From Tepidiforma bonchosmolovskayae (GTDB lineage Bacteria > Chloroflexota > Dehalococcoidia > Tepidiformales > Tepidiformaceae): a stretch of 64,000 nt of DNA. The stretch lies in NCBI RefSeq assembly GCF_008838325.1, contig NZ_CP042829.1:1426001-1490000 (forward strand), read 5' to 3'. Each line of letters begins with the position of its first letter. Position 1 is the first letter of the stretch. Below are positions 3 to 16,956 of this stretch, one piece after another. Made by a program: the position numbers and the translations under genes. Below the pieces are notes generated by a model. It had not been told where the DNA came from. It ran no database searches and saw only the letters and a program-made list of their open reading frames with translations.

Positions 3-563
3 ACCCACACCTACTGCCTCGGTGGCCTCTCCTTCTTTATGTTCCTCGGGCTCACGGTCACCGGCATCCTGCTGATGTTCTACTACGTGCCCTCCGTCGA
101 ACGGGCCTACCTCGATATCCAGAACATCACCACCACCGTCCAGTTCGGCCAGCTGATGCGCAACATGCACCGCTGGATGGCCCACGCCATGGTCATCCTC
201 GTCTTCCTCCACATGATGCGCGTCTTCTACACCGGCGCCTATAAACCGCCGCGCGAATTCAACTGGGTCGTCGGCGTCATCCTCCTGGTCCTCACCTTCC
301 TCCTCAGCTTCACCGGCTACCTCCTCCCGTGGGACCAGCTCGCCTTCTGGGCCATCACCGTCGGCTCCGAAATCGCCGGCTCCGCCCCCGTCCTCGGCCC
401 GAAGACCCGCTTCTGGATGCTCGGCGGCTTCGAAGTCGGCCCTAACGCCCTCATCCGCTTCTACACGCTCCACGTCATCGGCCTGCCGCTGCTCGCCGCC
501 ATCTTCATGGCCGTCCACTTCTGGCGCATCCGCCGCGACGGCGGTCTCGCCCGGCCGCTCTAG
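3..563 (+). CDS. petB: Cytochrome b, N-terminal (b6-type) subunit, 5'-truncated by window
   Basis: Membrane di-heme subunit of a quinol:electron-acceptor oxidoreductase (cytochrome bc/b6f family). The reading frame is open to the window edge, so the true start lies upstream; the visible part begins in helix I ([10 protein letters not shown]). Four hydrophobic segments are seen. Paired heme histidines are visible in helix II (HRWMAH...FLH, 14 residues apart) and helix IV (HVIGL...VHF, 15 apart); 15 in helix IV is the b6 rather than the mitochondrial-b spacing. The gene stops before helices V-VIII, which are encoded by the next gene, as in b6f. It is the first visible gene of a four-gene electron-transfer operon. 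Confidence 0.93.
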
Positions 564-599: not shown

Positions 600-1490
600 A
601 TGGCAACCGCAGTCGTAGCCCGCCCCGTCGCGCGCCCGCAGCCCCGCGCGCGTGACGAAGAGGTCCTCGTCTGGCCCGACCTTATCTTCATCGAATTCAT
701 CTCGGCGCTCGTCTTCACGGTCGGTCTCCTCATCCTGTCGACCTTCATGAACGCGCCGCTCCTCGACCAGGCGAACCCCGACGTCACCCCCAACCCCTCC
801 AAGGCGCCGTGGTACCTCCTCAACCTGCAGGAGCTCCTCCTCCACATGAACGCGGCCATGGCCGGCATCATCGTGCCGACCGTCTGGCTCATCCTCCTCG
901 CCGCGTTCCCCTACTTCGACCGCGATAACGAAGGCCAGGGCGCCTGGTTCGCCACCGAAAACGCCTGGCGCATCACCATCATCTCCGGCATCGTCGCCTT
1001 CGTCGGCACCTGGCTCCTCATCCTCTGGGACACCGGCAAGATCGCCTACTTCCTCCATTCGTGGTTCGGGCTCTCCGGCGGCGATACCCTCCGCTTCCTC
1101 GAGAACGTCCGCTCCATGCAGTCGCAGCTCCCGTGGCCCGAATGGTCGCGCAGCATCACCTACCTCCCCTTCGAGCTGCGCATCCTCGATGGCACCGGCC
1201 GCGGCGGCCCGACCACCTTCCAGCATCTCGACTTCCCCGGCTGGCTCGTCGAACAGGCGATTCCGATCACCGCCCTCGTTGGCCTTCCCAGCCTGCTCAT
1301 CTACTCCCTCTGGCGCTCCGGGCTTGTCGTCAGCCGCCGCGATGCGCTTCTTGCGCTCTTCACCGGCTTCGTCGTCGTCTTCGGCGTTCTCACCCTGGTG
1401 GGCACGGCGTTCCGCGGCCAGGGCCAGGAGCTCGTCATGCCCTGGCAGCTCAAGGTGAGCGAAGGCATCCCGGGGCAGGAGGCACACTGA
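600..1490 (+). CDS. petD: Cytochrome b C-terminal domain subunit (subunit IV-like)
   Basis: Carries the C-terminal helices of cytochrome b that form part of the quinol-oxidation site. After an Ala/Arg-rich cytoplasmic tail of about 25 residues come a hydrophobic segment and the Qo motif region [19 protein letters not shown], in which PEWY is replaced by APWY, as I recall for menaquinol-oxidising Gram-positive complexes. Further hydrophobic segments lie at about residues 85-105, 120-140 and 215-275. At 296 residues it is longer than plastid subunit IV. The ATG follows a purine-rich stretch (gagagggg) 4-11 nt upstream. It lies 36 bp after the b6-type gene and is followed at 1 bp by the Rieske gene. 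Confidence 0.88.
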
Positions 1491-1491
1491 C

Positions 1492-2100
1492 ATGGCACAG
1501 GCTCAATCCGCTCCCCGTGCGACCGGGCGCATCGAGCGCGCCCGCCAGATCGAAGCCCGCAAACTCGCGCGCCGCTCCTTCCTCCGGGTCAGCGCCTTCT
1601 CCGGCCTCGCCCTCTTCACCGGGGGGCTGCTCGCCTCCTTCCTTGGGTTCTTCAACCTCCGGAAGCCGACCGGCTTCGGCGGTACCGTCACCGTCACCGC
1701 CGACCGCATCCCCCGCCCCGGCGCCGACCCGGTCCGCATCCCCGAGGGCAAGTTCTGGCTCGTCAACTTGAACGGCCCGGAGGGCGACGTCCTCCAGGTC
1801 GGCGGCACCGGCGGCATCCTCGCGCTCTACTGGAAGTGCCCCCACCTCGGCTGCACCGTCCCGTGGAACCCCGCGTTCAACGGCGCCACCGTCAACTTCC
1901 CCGGCATCATCGGCTGGTTCCGCTGCCCCTGCCATGGCTCGACCTACTCCAAGGCCGGGGTCCGCGTCTTCGGCCCCGCGCCGCGTCCGATGGACACCAT
2001 GGCCATCAAGGTGAATGGTGACGGCTCGGTGAGCGTCAACACCGGCCAGATCACCGCGGGCGCGATCGATAACCCCCTCCGCGCTATCCCCTACTCCTGA
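1492..2100 (+). CDS. petC: Rieske [2Fe-2S] protein of the cytochrome bc complex
   Basis: High-potential iron-sulfur subunit that takes an electron from quinol and passes it to the c-type or copper acceptor. A twin-arginine motif RRSFLR (residues 27-32) precedes a transmembrane anchor at about 33-54, so Tat-dependent insertion is expected. Both Rieske boxes are intact: CPHLGC (C116, H118, C121) and CPCHGS (C145, C147, H148); the two outer Cys form the structural disulfide and the other Cys/His bind the cluster. Its start lies 1 bp after the preceding stop codon, so the genes are translationally linked. The neighbour downstream is the probable electron acceptor. Confidence 0.95.
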
Positions 2101-2116
2101 CCCCGAGGAGGTTCGA

Positions 2117-3967
2117 TTGAACACCCAGAAGCAGATCATCCTGATCGTCGCCCTCCTCTTCATGACCGTGGGCGGCTGCGCGGCCTACGCCGCCATCGAC
2201 CTCCCCGTGCGCGCCGATTCCCAGTCGCAGTGGACGCTCGACCAGTCCCGCGAGCGCGGCGCCCTCCTCTACGCCAACAACTGCCGCACGTGCCACGGCA
2301 ACCGCGGGGAAGGCGGCGTCGGCCTGCCCCTCGATACGCCCGAGCTCAAGAACCAGGACCCCCTCGTCCTCGCCGCCAACAAGGCGATGATCCGCCGCAC
2401 CCTCTACTGCGGCCGTGCCGGCACCCGGATGCCTGCCTGGCTCAACACCAACGGCGGCTCCCTCAATGCCATCCAGATCGAGCACCTCATTAACCTCATC
2501 ACTGCGCCCGAAGACACCGAAGTCGACGGCGTCCCGACCTCGAAGTGGTGGCTCGAAGCTGAGCATTTTGCCCACAACCTGAACACTGAACTCTCGGCCC
2601 TCGTGGGCGGCGATACGCTCTCCACCATCGCGAAGGCCCACGGCATCGGCTACCGCGAAATCTTCGCAGCCAACGGCAACCGGAACGTCGACGAAATCCT
2701 TCCGAAGAACACCCGCGTCCAAATCCCCGGTTTCAAGGCCCGCCCGGATGGCTACATCTACACCGTCTACAAAGACAACGAAACGCTCCGCAAAATCGCC
2801 GACAGCCAGCTCGTCGGCCCGGTCATCATCGCCGACCTCAACGGGCTGAAGTACACCTTCGAAGAGAAGCGCGGCGTCGCTACCCTGCAGCTTCTCACCG
2901 AGGATGGCAAGCCCCGCGCCGGCCTCTTCCCCGGCGAGACGCTCAAGCTCCCCGAAGGCGCCACCTATATCGTGGCCGCCGGTGATACGCCTGCATCCAT
3001 CGCCCAGCAGCACGGCATCGCCGTCGCCGACCTCCGCCGCCTCAACCCGACGATCTTCCAGGGCGTCAACGATACCGATCCCCTGGAGCACCGCCGGCAG
3101 CTCAACCTGCCCAGCCTCGTCTACGTGGCGCGCGAAGGGGACACCCTCCAGTCCATCGCGGAAGCGCACGGCATCAAGGACGTCGTCGGCCTCGCCCAGC
3201 TGAACAACCTCGACGCCGGCGCCCCGGTCGTCAACCCGGGCCAGGAGATTCGCCTCCCGAGCGGTACCCGGTACATCGTCGGCCTCGCCGATACCTGGGA
3301 ATCCGTGGCCCGCAGCCACAAGACCACCGCCGCCGAACTCGCCCGCGCCAACGGCGGAGACCCGGCCACCCCGCTCAGCCAGGATGTCGTCCTCCAGCTG
3401 CCGAAGATCGACCGCTACACGGTCCGGGGCCAGACCCTCGAGGAGGTGGCGAAGGGCTTCGCCAACGTCACCGCCGCCACCCTCGCCGAAGCGAACGGCA
3501 TCCAGCCGAACTCCATCCTTGCCATCGGCACGACCCTGAAACTCCCGGATTCCGCCTGGGGCACCGCGCCGCCCGATGCCATCAACCCCGGCACCGCCTG
3601 CGTCCAGTACGCCGTCCCCAACGCCGTCTTCCAGACGCTCCCCGGCCTCGGCACGCCCGTCAGCGTGAAGAAGCCGGAGAACTTCAGCACCGACGTCCGC
3701 TTTGAGGCCCACGCCAACGACTGGACCATCGTCGCCGACGGCCAGGCCCAGCAGCCCAACCTCGGCGGCGTGAAGGTGAAGCCCGGCACCACCATCACCT
3801 TCACCTCCATCGTCGGCCTGCACAACATCGTCTTCAACGGCGAAGTCCAGGGCGCCGATCTCAAGCAGGGCGACACCCGCCAGATCACCATGAACACCCC
3901 CGGCGAGTACAAGGTCACCTGCGACTACCACCCGCCCATGCTCGGCTACATCTGGGTGGAGCAGTAG
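2117..3967 (+). CDS. Cytochrome c - LysM repeats - cupredoxin fusion protein
   Basis: Predicted exported electron carrier of 616 residues. An N-terminal hydrophobic segment (7-25, ending VGGCAA, a possible lipobox) is followed by a class I cytochrome c domain with CRTCH (C56, C59, H60) and a candidate axial Met at M105. Residues 158-476 hold about six LysM-like repeats (for example GDTLSTIAKAHGI and GDTLQSIAEAHGI), a fold that binds peptidoglycan or other N-acetylglucosamine polymers. The C-terminus (about 525-616) is a cupredoxin with ligands H569, C602, H605 and M608; the C-x2-H-x2-M spacing matches amicyanin. The start is TTG, with GAGGAGG 5 nt upstream. It ends the bc operon, so it probably accepts electrons from the Rieske protein while held in the wall. 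The function as a unit is inference. Confidence 0.85.
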   Translation: MNTQKQIILIVALLFMTVGGCAAYAAIDLPVRADSQSQWTLDQSRERGALLYANNCRTCHGNRGEGGVGLPLDTPELKNQDPLVLAANKAMIRRTLYCGRAGTRMPAWLNTNGGSLNAIQIEHLINLITAPEDTEVDGVPTSKWWLEAEHFAHNLNTELSALVGGDTLSTIAKAHGIGYREIFAANGNRNVDEILPKNTRVQIPGFKARPDGYIYTVYKDNETLRKIADSQLVGPVIIADLNGLKYTFEEKRGVATLQLLTEDGKPRAGLFPGETLKLPEGATYIVAAGDTPASIAQQHGIAVADLRRLNPTIFQGVNDTDPLEHRRQLNLPSLVYVAREGDTLQSIAEAHGIKDVVGLAQLNNLDAGAPVVNPGQEIRLPSGTRYIVGLADTWESVARSHKTTAAELARANGGDPATPLSQDVVLQLPKIDRYTVRGQTLEEVAKGFANVTAATLAEANGIQPNSILAIGTTLKLPDSAWGTAPPDAINPGTACVQYAVPNAVFQTLPGLGTPVSVKKPENFSTDVRFEAHANDWTIVADGQAQQPNLGGVKVKPGTTITFTSIVGLHNIVFNGEVQGADLKQGDTRQITMNTPGEYKVTCDYHPPMLGYIWVEQ

Positions 3968-3989
3968 CACCTCCCGTCCGGCTGAATGC

Positions 3990-4016
3990 GAAAGGGGCCT
4001 CCCCGAGGCCCCTTTC
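3990..4016 (+). terminator. Hairpin terminator after the bc operon
   Basis: A perfect 11-bp inverted repeat (GAAAGGGGCCT / AGGCCCCTTTC) with loop CCCCG lies 23 bp after the stop codon. Only a short T-containing tail follows (CGTTTG), so termination would rest mainly on the stem. Confidence 0.8.
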
Positions 4017-4106
4017 CGTTTGACCGCCGCATCCCCGCTCCGTACGATCCGGGCGAACTATCGCGCCCGCGCGCAGATCTCCAAATCAGGAACAGGGGTA
4101 GAAGGG

Positions 4107-4409
4107 ATGGCAGCAGCCCAGACAGGCAAGCGCTACGTCGTGCCCGGCGGCGTCGCAGAATTCATCGTCACCAAAGGCGGCAACGGCGAACTCCGCTGCG
4201 GCGACGTGCCCATGCAGATCCGCGGCCAGGAAGATCCGAACGTCACCGTCGATACCACCGGCATGGAAGTCGTCCAGCTCGGCAAGCGGTACCGCGACGA
4301 ACAGACCGGCATCGAGGTCCTCGTGGTCAAGCCCGGTCCGTGCGCGCTCAACGTCGACGGCCGGCCGATGGAGCTCCTCCAGCCGAAGGTCCTCCCCTCG
4401 GCCGACTGA
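4107..4409 (+). CDS. Small desulforedoxin-like tandem protein lacking metal cysteines
   Basis: A 100-residue cytosolic protein of unknown role. It contains two copies of one motif, GKRYVVPGGVAEFIVTKGG...CGDVPM (about residues 7-39) and GKRYRDEQTGIEVLVVKPG...DGRPM (about 61-91). The pattern resembles desulforedoxin (Y-x-C-x2-C-G ... L-x-C-C-G-x2-M), but the CxxC pair is VPGG or DEQT here and the CC pair is CG or VD, so rubredoxin-type iron binding is unlikely. The ATG at 4107 is chosen because it follows gtagaaggg and excludes an unconserved N-terminal extension. The family assignment comes from pattern recognition and is moderately sure. Confidence 0.7.
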   Translation: MAAAQTGKRYVVPGGVAEFIVTKGGNGELRCGDVPMQIRGQEDPNVTVDTTGMEVVQLGKRYRDEQTGIEVLVVKPGPCALNVDGRPMELLQPKVLPSAD

Positions 4410-13760: not shown

Positions 13761-14951
13761 CTACCGCTGCCCCGCCGCCAGCGGACGCCGCGCCCATTCC
13801 TCCCAGAGCGCCCACGCCTGCTTGTTCGAACCGTCCGAGCGTCGCAGGCCGACATCCTTGAACGCCACCGCGGGGCCGGTCGTCGCGAAGGCCGGGTCGA
13901 GCGCCGCGAACCATACCACCCCGCTGAACCCGAGCTGCTCCGCCTCCGTCAGCACCCGCTGCAGGTACGCCTTCTGCTCCGCCTCCGTGCCCACCGCCTC
14001 CCGGCCCTCCACCGGCGCCGACGGGTAGCCCGTCTCCGCAACCAGGATCTCGCCGCTCCACCGCGTCCGAAGCTGGCGGTAGTAGTCCTCCCGGATGTCT
14101 GCCACGCTCCGCACCTCGCCGAGGAACGGGTACGTACTGATCGCCAGCACGTCCATCTTCCCGCGGAACCGTTCGATCAGCTCCCAGCGCGGCGGGTGCA
14201 CCTGCCCGAACGTCCCCTCGAGGTCCTCCAGCTGCCACGTCGGGAACACCTTCGTCCCCGGGCTGTTCCCCTTCACCACCGCGTACGCCTCATCGTACAG
14301 CGTCGCAAAGGCCTCGAACTGCCGCGGCGCCCGCTCGTAGGTCATATTGATCTCGAGCCCGAGCGCCATGTACGCCGGTTTGTAGTTCTTCGCGATGTAG
14401 GCCGCGTAGGCCACGAACGCCGCCCGCACGTCCGGGTCTTCAAACCCGGCCTGCACATCGACCGACGACGGCAGGTTCGCCAGCCGGCTCCGCTGCACCG
14501 CCCCATCCGTCGGGTCGATCGCGTAGTACAGCCGGAGGTTGCTGTATTGCTTCAGCAGCGCCGTCTCCAGCCGCGTCGTCTCCGCCGTTTCGTTCGAAAT
14601 CGTCCCGCCCGGGAGGAACTCCGCCCACGGCGGCGTCCGCTGGATGAGCAGGAGGTCGGCGTACTGTGCCGCTGTCGCGAACGCCTGGATGTACGACTGG
14701 CTCGTCAGCTCCGCCGGCAGCGAGCTGAACCCGAGCAGCACCGTCCGCGGCTCGCCCGCCGGCTCCGGCCGCACCACGGTCGGTCCCGGCCCGCCCGGCC
14801 CGGCCCCTGGCGTCCCGGAGCCGCTGCCGCTTCCGCTGCCGCAGGCGGTAAAGGCCAGCCCGGTGAGCGCCAGCAGCGCTGCTACAATCCAGCTGGCGGG
14901 GACCCACGAGGAGCGGCGCATGCCCGTGCGCGCAGTCTTCCTTGCAGCCAT
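13761..14951 (-). CDS. Secreted TIM-barrel glycosidase-like lipoprotein
   Basis: About 396 residues. A Lys/Arg-rich N-terminus and hydrophobic segment end in FTAC, followed by a Gly/Ser/Pro linker, so a lipid-anchored exported protein is likely. The body looks like a clan-A (beta/alpha)8 glycoside hydrolase: one candidate catalytic Glu in LGLEINM and a second in ILVAETGYPS, with aromatic-rich strand ends (ISTYPFLGEV, GVVWFAALDP). The exact GH family was not recognised; the GH53 type is one option. Three consecutive ATGs follow AGGAGG; 14951 gives the best spacing, with 14921 as an alternative. The 5' end overlaps the divergent PBP gene. Confidence 0.7.
   Translation of the reverse strand: MAARKTARTGMRRSSWVPASWIVAALLALTGLAFTACGSGSGSGSGTPGAGPGGPGPTVVRPEPAGEPRTVLLGFSSLPAELTSQSYIQAFATAAQYADLLLIQRTPPWAEFLPGGTISNETAETTRLETALLKQYSNLRLYYAIDPTDGAVQRSRLANLPSSVDVQAGFEDPDVRAAFVAYAAYIAKNYKPAYMALGLEINMTYERAPRQFEAFATLYDEAYAVVKGNSPGTKVFPTWQLEDLEGTFGQVHPPRWELIERFRGKMDVLAISTYPFLGEVRSVADIREDYYRQLRTRWSGEILVAETGYPSAPVEGREAVGTEAEQKAYLQRVLTEAEQLGFSGVVWFAALDPAFATTGPAVAFKDVGLRRSDGSNKQAWALWEEWARRPLAAGQR
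14883..14913 (+). promoter_or_regulatory. -10 TACAAT and Shine-Dalgarno GAGGAG of the PBP gene
   Basis: TACAAT (14883-14888) and GAGGAG (14908-14913, 6 nt before the ATG at 14920) lie inside the 5' coding end of the divergent lipoprotein gene. Confidence 0.55.
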
Positions 14952-16956
14952 CATCATTGGCCTCCTGGCCGGCGGCGCCGTGGCCGGCGCGCGGTGGGCC
15001 GCCTCCCGGGGCGGCAGCGATTCCCCGTCCGCCGCAGCGCCCGAGCCCGGCTCCCCCGCCGCAGCCGCCGCCGAGTTCGCGGCCGCCTGGGCCGCCGGCG
15101 ACCTCCAGGCCCTCTACCTGCTCCTCTCCCCGGCCGCGCAGCGCACGTACAGCTACGAGGCCTTCGCCGATGCCTACCGCACCTTCGAAGAGCAGGTCAC
15201 CGTGACCCAAACCGCCGTGCGCGCCGCCGATGTGAACGGCTCCGCCGCCCGCCTCGACGTGCGCCTCGCTACAGCCTATTTCGGCACGCTCGAATACTCC
15301 ACCGCCCTCCCCCTCGTCCCTGCACCAGGCCGTTACCTTGTCGAATGGACCCCTGCCGTCATCCATCCCCGCCTCGCCGGCGGCTACGCCTTCAGCTCCG
15401 TCATCCAGCGCCCTGTCCGCGGCACCATCTACGACCGGAACGGCATCGAACTCGCCGTCACCCGCGAAATCCGCCACGTCGGCCTTAACCGCGGCGTCAT
15501 CACCGATCGGCCCGGCCTCGAAGCAGCCCTCCTCGCCTTCGGCTTCACCCGCGAGCAGGTCGATGCCGCCTTCGCCTCCCCCGCGCCCCTCAACCACCGC
15601 GTCCGCGTCGGCCCCATCCCCGACGACCGCGTCGAAGAGGCCAATCGGCTCCTCCGCCCTTTCCAGGGCGTCATCATCTATGTCGAAACCCAGCGCGTGC
15701 ACCCCCTCGGCCCGGCCGCCGCCCACGTCGTTGGCTACACCCGCGAGTACACCGCCGAGGAGCTCAAAGCCCGCGCCGGCCAGGGCTTCCGCCCCGGCGA
15801 CCGCGTCGGCGCCGCCGGTCTCGAAGCCGTGTTCAACGACCGTCTCGCCGGGAGCATCGGCGCCGAACTCCGCCTCATCGGCCCCGACGGCGCCGTCGCC
15901 GAAGTGCTCATCTCCCGCCCCTTCCGCCAGGGCGAGGACCTCCGCACCACGCTCGACGCCCCGACCCTCCAGCGCGCCTACGAACGCCTCGGCGGCCGCG
16001 CTGGCGCAGCCGTCGTCGTCGACCCTGCGACCAACGGCCTCCTCGCCCTCGTCAGCTCCCCCAGCTTCGACCCCGACGCCTTCGAACGCGGCGATGCCGC
16101 TGCCCTCGCGGCCATCACGGCCGCGCCCGGCGCTCCCCTCGCCAACCGCGCCGCCACCGGCCTCTACTCGGCCGGCTCCACCTTCAAGCTGGTCACCGGC
16201 GCGGCCGGGATGGTCTACCTCGGGCTCACCCCGAACGACCGGCTCGATTGCGGCGCCATCTGGTACGGCGTCGACCCGCCCCGCCGCAACTGGGAAGGGA
16301 GCCAGGGTTCGCTCACCATCGCCGAGGCCCTCATGCGCTCCTGCAACCCCGTCTTCTACGAAATCGCCCTCCGCCTCTACAACCAGTTCGATGACGCCCT
16401 CGCCGCGATGGCCCGCCAGTTCGGCTTCGGCGCCCCCACCGGCACCCTCGGCGTCGTCGAAGAAGCCGGCCTCGTGCCCGATGCCGCCTGGAAGCGCCGG
16501 ACCACCGGCCAGCCCTGGTACCCCGGCGACGAAGTCAACCTCGGCATCGGCCAGGGCGACCTCCTCATCACCCCACTCCAGCTCGCCAACGCCTACAGCA
16601 CCTTCGTGACTGGCCAGCTCCGCACCCCGCGCCTCCTCGAGGAGGCCGAGGCGACGGTGCGCGGCACACTCCCGCTTACCCCGGAGCAGCACGCCCACCT
16701 CATGCGCGGACTCGAGCTCGTCACCGGCCCCCGCGGCACCGCCGCTGCCGCCTTCGCACTGGCCGGCTATACCGACTTCGCCGGCAAATCCGGCACCGCT
16801 GAAGACGCCGGGGCCCAGCAGCACGTCCTCTTCGTCGCCATGCGTCCCGCGAAGCAGCCCCGCGCCATCGCCGCAGTCGTCCTCGATGACGGCAAATCCG
16901 GCTCCATCGAAGCCGGGCCGATCGCCCGCGACATCCTCCTCGCTGCCCTCCGGTAG
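14920..16956 (+). CDS. Class B penicillin-binding protein with MecA-type N-terminal domain
   Basis: Peptidoglycan transpeptidase of 678 residues, membrane-anchored by residues 5-25. Order of domains: an NTF2-like MecA_N domain (about 48-140), a PBP dimerisation region starting RPVRGTIYDRNG (about 165-330) and a transpeptidase domain. All three active-site motifs are present: STFK (S420, K423), SCN (S474, N476) and KSGT (K623-T626). No transglycosylase domain. The architecture is that of PBP2a/PBP3-like class B enzymes. Its presence argues that this organism makes cross-linked peptidoglycan. ATG 14920 lies 6 nt after GAGGAG and within a CATG shared with the divergent gene. Confidence 0.92.
   Translation: MPVRAVFLAAIIIGLLAGGAVAGARWAASRGGSDSPSAAAPEPGSPAAAAAEFAAAWAAGDLQALYLLLSPAAQRTYSYEAFADAYRTFEEQVTVTQTAVRAADVNGSAARLDVRLATAYFGTLEYSTALPLVPAPGRYLVEWTPAVIHPRLAGGYAFSSVIQRPVRGTIYDRNGIELAVTREIRHVGLNRGVITDRPGLEAALLAFGFTREQVDAAFASPAPLNHRVRVGPIPDDRVEEANRLLRPFQGVIIYVETQRVHPLGPAAAHVVGYTREYTAEELKARAGQGFRPGDRVGAAGLEAVFNDRLAGSIGAELRLIGPDGAVAEVLISRPFRQGEDLRTTLDAPTLQRAYERLGGRAGAAVVVDPATNGLLALVSSPSFDPDAFERGDAAALAAITAAPGAPLANRAATGLYSAGSTFKLVTGAAGMVYLGLTPNDRLDCGAIWYGVDPPRRNWEGSQGSLTIAEALMRSCNPVFYEIALRLYNQFDDALAAMARQFGFGAPTGTLGVVEEAGLVPDAAWKRRTTGQPWYPGDEVNLGIGQGDLLITPLQLANAYSTFVTGQLRTPRLLEEAEATVRGTLPLTPEQHAHLMRGLELVTGPRGTAAAAFALAGYTDFAGKSGTAEDAGAQQHVLFVAMRPAKQPRAIAAVVLDDGKSGSIEAGPIARDILLAALR

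Follow-up and report, generated by a model that had tools for sequence, protein, structure and literature searches.

A LysM-bearing heme-copper protein at the end of a Tepidiforma bc operon, a candidate membrane-anchored and wall-docked electron carrier

What is a protein that combines a cytochrome c, a row of LysM repeats and a copper domain doing directly behind the Rieske gene of a bc operon? The question is raised by the genome of Tepidiforma bonchosmolovskayae (Chloroflexota, Dehalococcoidia; one contig, 2.75 Mb), a member of a family of heat-loving bacteria of soil and hot springs. The window considered here is the whole 64,000-nt stretch from 1,426,001 to 1,490,000 of NZ_CP042829.1, the contig being cited as C1 where genome coordinates are given. 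An initial annotation had proposed a wall-tethered electron carrier that replaces a diffusible cytochrome c. The reading favored here is that the carrier is probably a membrane-anchored bc subunit resembling the actinobacterial QcrC, with an on-board copper relay, and that it is also docked to the wall.

The first evidence is positional. In window coordinates, the genes concerned are:

3 to 563, plus strand: cytochrome b6-type subunit, cut by the window start (whole gene C1:1425781-1426563, 260 aa)
600 to 1490, plus strand: subunit IV-like C-terminal cytochrome b half, 296 aa (Cytochrom_B_C 23.8 bits; conserved order)
1492 to 2100, plus strand: Rieske iron-sulfur protein, 202 aa (PF00355 28.7 bits; b6f PetC model 60.6 bits)
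2104 to 2111, plus strand: ribosome-binding site of the carrier gene, a GAGGAGG Shine-Dalgarno sequence ahead of the TTG start
2117 to 3964, stop codon 3965-3967, plus strand: carrier gene, 616 aa, TTG start

The cytochrome b6-type subunit, read as a complete gene in L021, matches Cytochrome_B (160 bits) and the NCBIfam cytochrome b6 model (207 bits), and a family 2 glycosyltransferase gene lies upstream of it. The order b6, IV, Rieske, carrier is found in every relative examined within the class whose contig reaches that far, with or without LysM repeats, and this recurrence beside the cytochrome b and Rieske genes makes the carrier, by position, the cytochrome partner of the bc complex. The annotation's placement of the gene at the end of a bc operon is thus borne out in the window and in relatives, and its suggested look for the gene next to bc operons elsewhere gave this position at every examined carrier locus in the class that reaches the bc genes.

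Within the carrier, all on the plus strand, the following parts can be distinguished:

2117 to 2221: N-terminal membrane segment, residues 1-35, with invariant C21 (AlphaFold helix)
2246 to 2506: monoheme cytochrome c domain, residues 44-130, with CRTCH (56-60), M105 and invariant C98
2594 to 3541: six LysM-like units, residues about 160-475 (Pfam LysM and AlphaFold model)
3599 to 3601: C495, invariant, the predicted disulfide partner of C98
3689 to 3964: amicyanin-type cupredoxin, residues 525-616, with H569, C602, H605 and M608

The heme domain passes the Pfam cut-offs for Cytochrome_CBB3 (29.2 bits; cut-off 27) and Cytochrom_C (23.1; cut-off 21.3), and has both the CxxCH motif and the distal Met of a class I cytochrome c; among 23 family f1 members, C56, C59 and H60 are invariant and M105 nearly so. 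Ahead of it, the AlphaFold model (built from 23 family f1 members; pLDDT 81, pTM 0.60) has a helix at residues 3-32. The membrane segment is kept in most other families of the class, mostly without the Cys; C21, invariant in 23/23 family f1 proteins, possibly marks a lipobox, and otherwise the segment would be an uncleaved anchor.

The LysM block scores 138.1 bits with Pfam PF01476 (cut-off 20.9) over five stretches, and five units pass Pfam singly on the genome (E 1.8e-7 to 1.6e-4). The AlphaFold model has six beta-alpha-alpha-beta units, at about 160-203, 213-260, 283-330, 335-379, 385-427 and 433-475, of which the second is degenerate. LysM repeats are shared with peptidoglycan-binding proteins such as murein transglycosylase D and DipM; unlike these, the carrier has no hydrolase, and its repeats are fused to redox domains. 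The annotation's central observation, a single frame with CRTCH (C56-H60), about six LysM repeats and a cupredoxin, therefore holds up by Pfam and AlphaFold across the 616-aa ORF, including the profile homology on which it had staked its LysM assignment.

The copper domain needs slightly more caution. The C-terminal beta-sandwich (527-614 in the model) retrieves amicyanin, plastocyanin and other cupredoxins with Foldseek (E about 1e-5), and the four proposed ligands are all there: H569, C602 and H605 are invariant, and M608 is kept in all but one of the 23 family f1 members, being Gln in L019, so that both the fold and the ligand set are those of a type-1 copper cupredoxin, M608 being absent in that one relative. 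The Copper-bind profile gives 19.1 bits by hmmscan (cut-off 21.2) and 24.4 bits, above the cut-off, with genome-level scoring that includes in-frame neighbors. The description as amicyanin-like stands for the fold and ligand loop; it fails against the amicyanin model itself (TIGR02657, 20.7 bits; equivalog cut-off 110.2), and “amicyanin-type” is used here for the ligand loop only. The fold and the C-x2-H-x2-M loop are those of amicyanin, plastocyanin and pseudoazurin, but in the carrier the cupredoxin is the terminal domain of a membrane-anchored multidomain protein. The exceptional L019 / L064 protein has CDFHPEQ, with Gln for the axial Met in a stellacyanin-like ligand set, a change that should shift the copper potential.

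With up to six LysM units between them, how could the heme and the copper exchange electrons? A clue may lie in the cysteines. Exactly six, at identical positions, occur in 23/23 family f1 proteins: C56 and C59 serve the heme, C602 the copper, and C21 lies in the membrane segment, leaving C98 and C495 without a cofactor role. Elsewhere in the class, the Cys at the C98 site (CGR) pairs with the Cys of a CGQ motif preceding either a cupredoxin or a second heme, and the C98 and linker cysteines are, with few exceptions, jointly present or jointly absent. An automatic count flagged 5 of 104 proteins as discordant: L016 actually has C495 and was flagged through a misread motif, the L026 protein (13816-15999) is not a bc-linked carrier, and L029, L187 and L188 have no C98. 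Because the two cysteines co-occur across the class, the likeliest arrangement is a C98-C495 disulfide, probably tying the cupredoxin base to the cytochrome. The loop so closed would contain the LysM units, and the beginning of the C-terminal redox domain would come to lie at the heme domain, which would solve the separation that six LysM units otherwise impose. In the two AlphaFold models (pTM 0.60 and 0.54), the placement of cytochrome and cupredoxin relative to each other is not fixed. Outside the class but in the same phylum, two comparable cysteines occur in the heme-cupredoxin proteins L182 and L193 (family f104): one lies close to the C98 site (YVCG) and the other ahead of the cupredoxin (PACW, PDCW).

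Comparison across the class separates the LysM block from the rest. In a first survey, most family f1 genomes proved to have a full-length LysM carrier; the named genome collection gave 37 loci, four of them more distant matches outside that family. In the class sample, the heme domain is present in 128/294 genomes, and LysM is absent from all of the approximately 46 heme-domain carriers read from other families. One cupredoxin is the commonest state among these; two have tandem cupredoxins, in two others the place of the cupredoxin behind the cysteine pair is taken by a second CxxCH domain, and a few without the pair carry two or more hemes. LysM is likewise missing from twenty more examples taken from the rest of the phylum, which carry either two or three hemes or a cupredoxin. 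The annotation's suggested check for the same domain order in other Chloroflexota thus had a split outcome: the order of heme and cupredoxin extends beyond family f1, but LysM is confined to it. LysM-less proteins at bc operon ends in Dehalococcoidia and Chloroflexota (L024, L103, L106, L138, L193) share the heme and cupredoxin, the operon position where checked and, within the class, the Cys pair; they differ in lacking LysM and sometimes in having two cupredoxins, a plastocyanin/sulfocyanin-like site or a second heme. Since LysM-less relatives hold the same operon position, LysM does not define the carrier.

A tree built from 104 heme domains separates the 32 LysM proteins from all others by a single branch (support 100/99, recovered in 100% of 200 bootstrap trees), with the two tandem-cupredoxin proteins adjoining them; the simplest reading of this placement is a single acquisition of LysM at the base of family f1. 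The block is a lineage-specific insertion inside a conserved loop that is itself probably closed by a disulfide, and the comparison suggests an evolution of modular carriers in Dehalococcoidia at one fixed operon position, with copper, double copper, a second heme or no cap. The loop has other occupants: a different repeat (LRIG-E-V...VERG-GT-A-H--G) lies between C98 and CGQ in L108-L113, L115, L119-L121, L124, L125 and L130, with carriers of up to 769 aa, and in L109 and L119 it has no Pfam match.

The nearest described system is the actinobacterial bcc-aa3 supercomplex with its diheme cytochrome cc, QcrC, which is likewise membrane-anchored, encoded with the bc genes and equipped with two redox centers per chain, and whose bc complex needs no soluble cytochrome c, as in mycobacteria, which lack one (PMC4505504). 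The likeness is weak at the profile level (21 bits for the carrier heme domain and 34 for that of L024, with a cut-off of 200 for NF050122), and with a single CxxCH the carrier falls outside QcrC proper. It differs in having one heme and one type-1 copper, a LysM insert and an extra conserved Cys pair, and in an operon with split cytochrome b (b6, IV, Rieske, carrier) rather than qcrCAB.

The rest of the respiratory chain, as far as it can be read from the genome, fits a carrier of this kind. Among the two Pfam cytochrome c families counted, the genome has just two domains, that of the carrier and one fused to a membrane protein that reads as CopD-like; the proposal that the carrier replaces a free cytochrome c gains from this. 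There are two COX1 genes, and the COX2 protein that goes with each has the CuA-type motif and lacks CxxCH; one COX2 resembles actinobacterial CtaC (238 bits, cut-off 250), a further likeness to the QcrC system, and scores 201 bits with CoxB (cut-off 148). Three small cupredoxin genes are found at other places in the genome, and the products of at least two have lipoprotein-like signals. A membrane protein with a C-terminal cupredoxin is encoded beside the cox genes (L160:2280-3632, minus strand, about C1:2310280-2311632) and is a possible next station between the carrier and CuA; it and the small cupredoxins could also be further or alternative carriers.

On the favored reading, the N-terminal segment would hold the carrier in the membrane, and heme c (His60, Met105) would take electrons from the Rieske protein. 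The C98-C495 disulfide would keep the cupredoxin base beside the cytochrome, allowing the heme to pass its electron to the type-1 copper, which would deliver it to the CuA center of an aa3-type oxidase. Between the two cysteines, five or six LysM units would bind peptidoglycan, and this contact would fix or space the bc complex against the wall. We infer the cofactor loading, the disulfide, the electron path and the wall binding alike. The full assembly, in which a LysM-bound bc cytochrome subunit is stapled to the wall and disulfide-held copper replaces the mobile carrier en route to the oxidase, is put forward tentatively, its odds being somewhat short of even. If it is correct, a single heme together with a single copper stands in for cytochrome c1 as well as for the mobile carrier, and there is a direct physical link from the respiratory chain to the cell wall. 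The original term “wall-tethered” is apt in that LysM occurs here in a peptidoglycan-bearing organism (PMC10284905), but incomplete: because the N-terminal membrane segment is conserved, the carrier would be anchored at the membrane as well.

The strongest competitor keeps the bc carrier and the copper relay and takes LysM as a mere spacer or stabilizing insert with no wall binding. We consider this somewhat unlikely, though there is a case for it: in other families the C98-CGQ loop holds repeats of an unrelated kind, a helical stretch or next to nothing, the number of LysM units varies from 3 (a truncated version in L034) to 6 among family f1 carriers, unit 2 is degenerate, and the block is the least conserved part (mean identity 44%, compared with 71% in the cytochrome and 53% in the cupredoxin). 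Against a passive role, five units each pass Pfam, dN/dS of the LysM part stays below 0.26 within the genus, and the peptidoglycan layer is thick in the studied members of family f1: the envelope of T. flava and T. thermophila comprises a cytoplasmic membrane, a 40 nm periplasm with about 20 nm of peptidoglycan, and an S-layer, and sacculi and beta-lactam sensitivity are described for Tepidiforma (PMC10284905).

Does LysM then follow the wall? Peptidoglycan biosynthesis is present in Dehalococcoidia orders 1-9, Tepidiformales included, and lost in orders 10-25 (PMC10284905), and every LysM-carrier genome of the class sample has an mraY match (only a partial one in G003). For the carrier N-domain and mraY among 294 genomes, 110 have both, 146 neither and 38 are discordant, a descriptive count with relatedness uncontrolled. 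Many mraY-positive families of the class carry a LysM-less bc partner, from which it follows that wall binding is not required for the carrier's job. The wall would be a precondition permitting LysM and not a predictor of it, which is consistent with LysM binding the wall. The idea that LysM tracks peptidoglycan class-wide was rejected, most mraY-bearing carrier families being without LysM. A link to peptidoglycan history may be seen in that the LysM form belongs to a family whose studied members retain peptidoglycan and later orders are reported to lose it (PMC10284905).

A second alternative, which we judge unlikely, and less likely than the spacer model, accepts the heme domain as a bc subunit and assigns the cupredoxin to copper delivery to CuA or to copper sensing, with electrons leaving the heme through a different carrier, for instance the small lipoprotein cupredoxins. 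The three small cupredoxin genes and the cox-linked cupredoxin protein make such a route conceivable, and family f21 carriers do without a cap beyond the linker Cys. Yet the His-Cys-His-Met type-1 ligands are invariant or nearly so, and typical copper chaperones differ from this ligand set. Family f2 also speaks against delivery: in the same terminal place, some of its genomes have a second heme c and others a cupredoxin (L131 and L133 compared with L132 and L134), an exchange that points to an electron-relay role for the terminal module. The family f21 carriers themselves (L023, L135, L136, L137, L146, L147) end just past the CGQ Cys, with no second redox domain and an insert that is largely helical-looking by sequence.

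It is very improbable that the carrier conducts electrons across the wall to an external acceptor and not to the oxidase: LysM could bring redox centers toward the wall, but COX1 is present in every family f1 genome, no multiheme cytochrome appears among the genome's Pfam cytochrome c matches, and the studied Tepidiforma (T. flava, T. thermophila) are strictly aerobic and oxidase-positive (PMC10284905). Nor is the carrier credible as a chance fusion or assembly artefact, a suggestion we rejected because full-length relatives at 43-93% identity occur in most family f1 genomes, in independent assemblies, with purifying selection (dN/dS 0.04-0.28 across the cytochrome, LysM and cupredoxin parts in comparisons within the genus); the carrier of T. 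flava YIM 72310, at 86% identity, is among the closest named relatives.

How new is this architecture? The claim that no such bc partner had been described agrees with the open-access literature searched, which yielded neither a protein joining LysM to cytochrome c and cupredoxin nor a cupredoxin-fused bc partner, and no description of the LysM-less heme-cupredoxin partners. Within that literature and one phylum's genomes, what is new is that LysM has been inserted into a bc partner and that a conserved Cys pair bounds the insertion; the heme-copper bc partner as such is apparently a wider, undescribed feature of Chloroflexota.

A few features of the gene itself deserve mention. TTG is the start codon in 19 of 23 family f1 carriers (GTG in 3, ATG in 1), and a GGAGG-like site with TTG is retained in most relatives; the conserved TTG directly behind the Rieske gene (window 2117; L001-L019, L030-L034) may keep carrier stoichiometry low. 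A consensus scan for a terminator downstream of the carrier found none; by eye, there is a GC-rich inverted repeat at about 3988-4017. Beyond it, at 4107-4409 (plus strand), lies a 100-aa ORF of no Pfam or NCBIfam family that is present in most family f1 loci and in several other families of the class.
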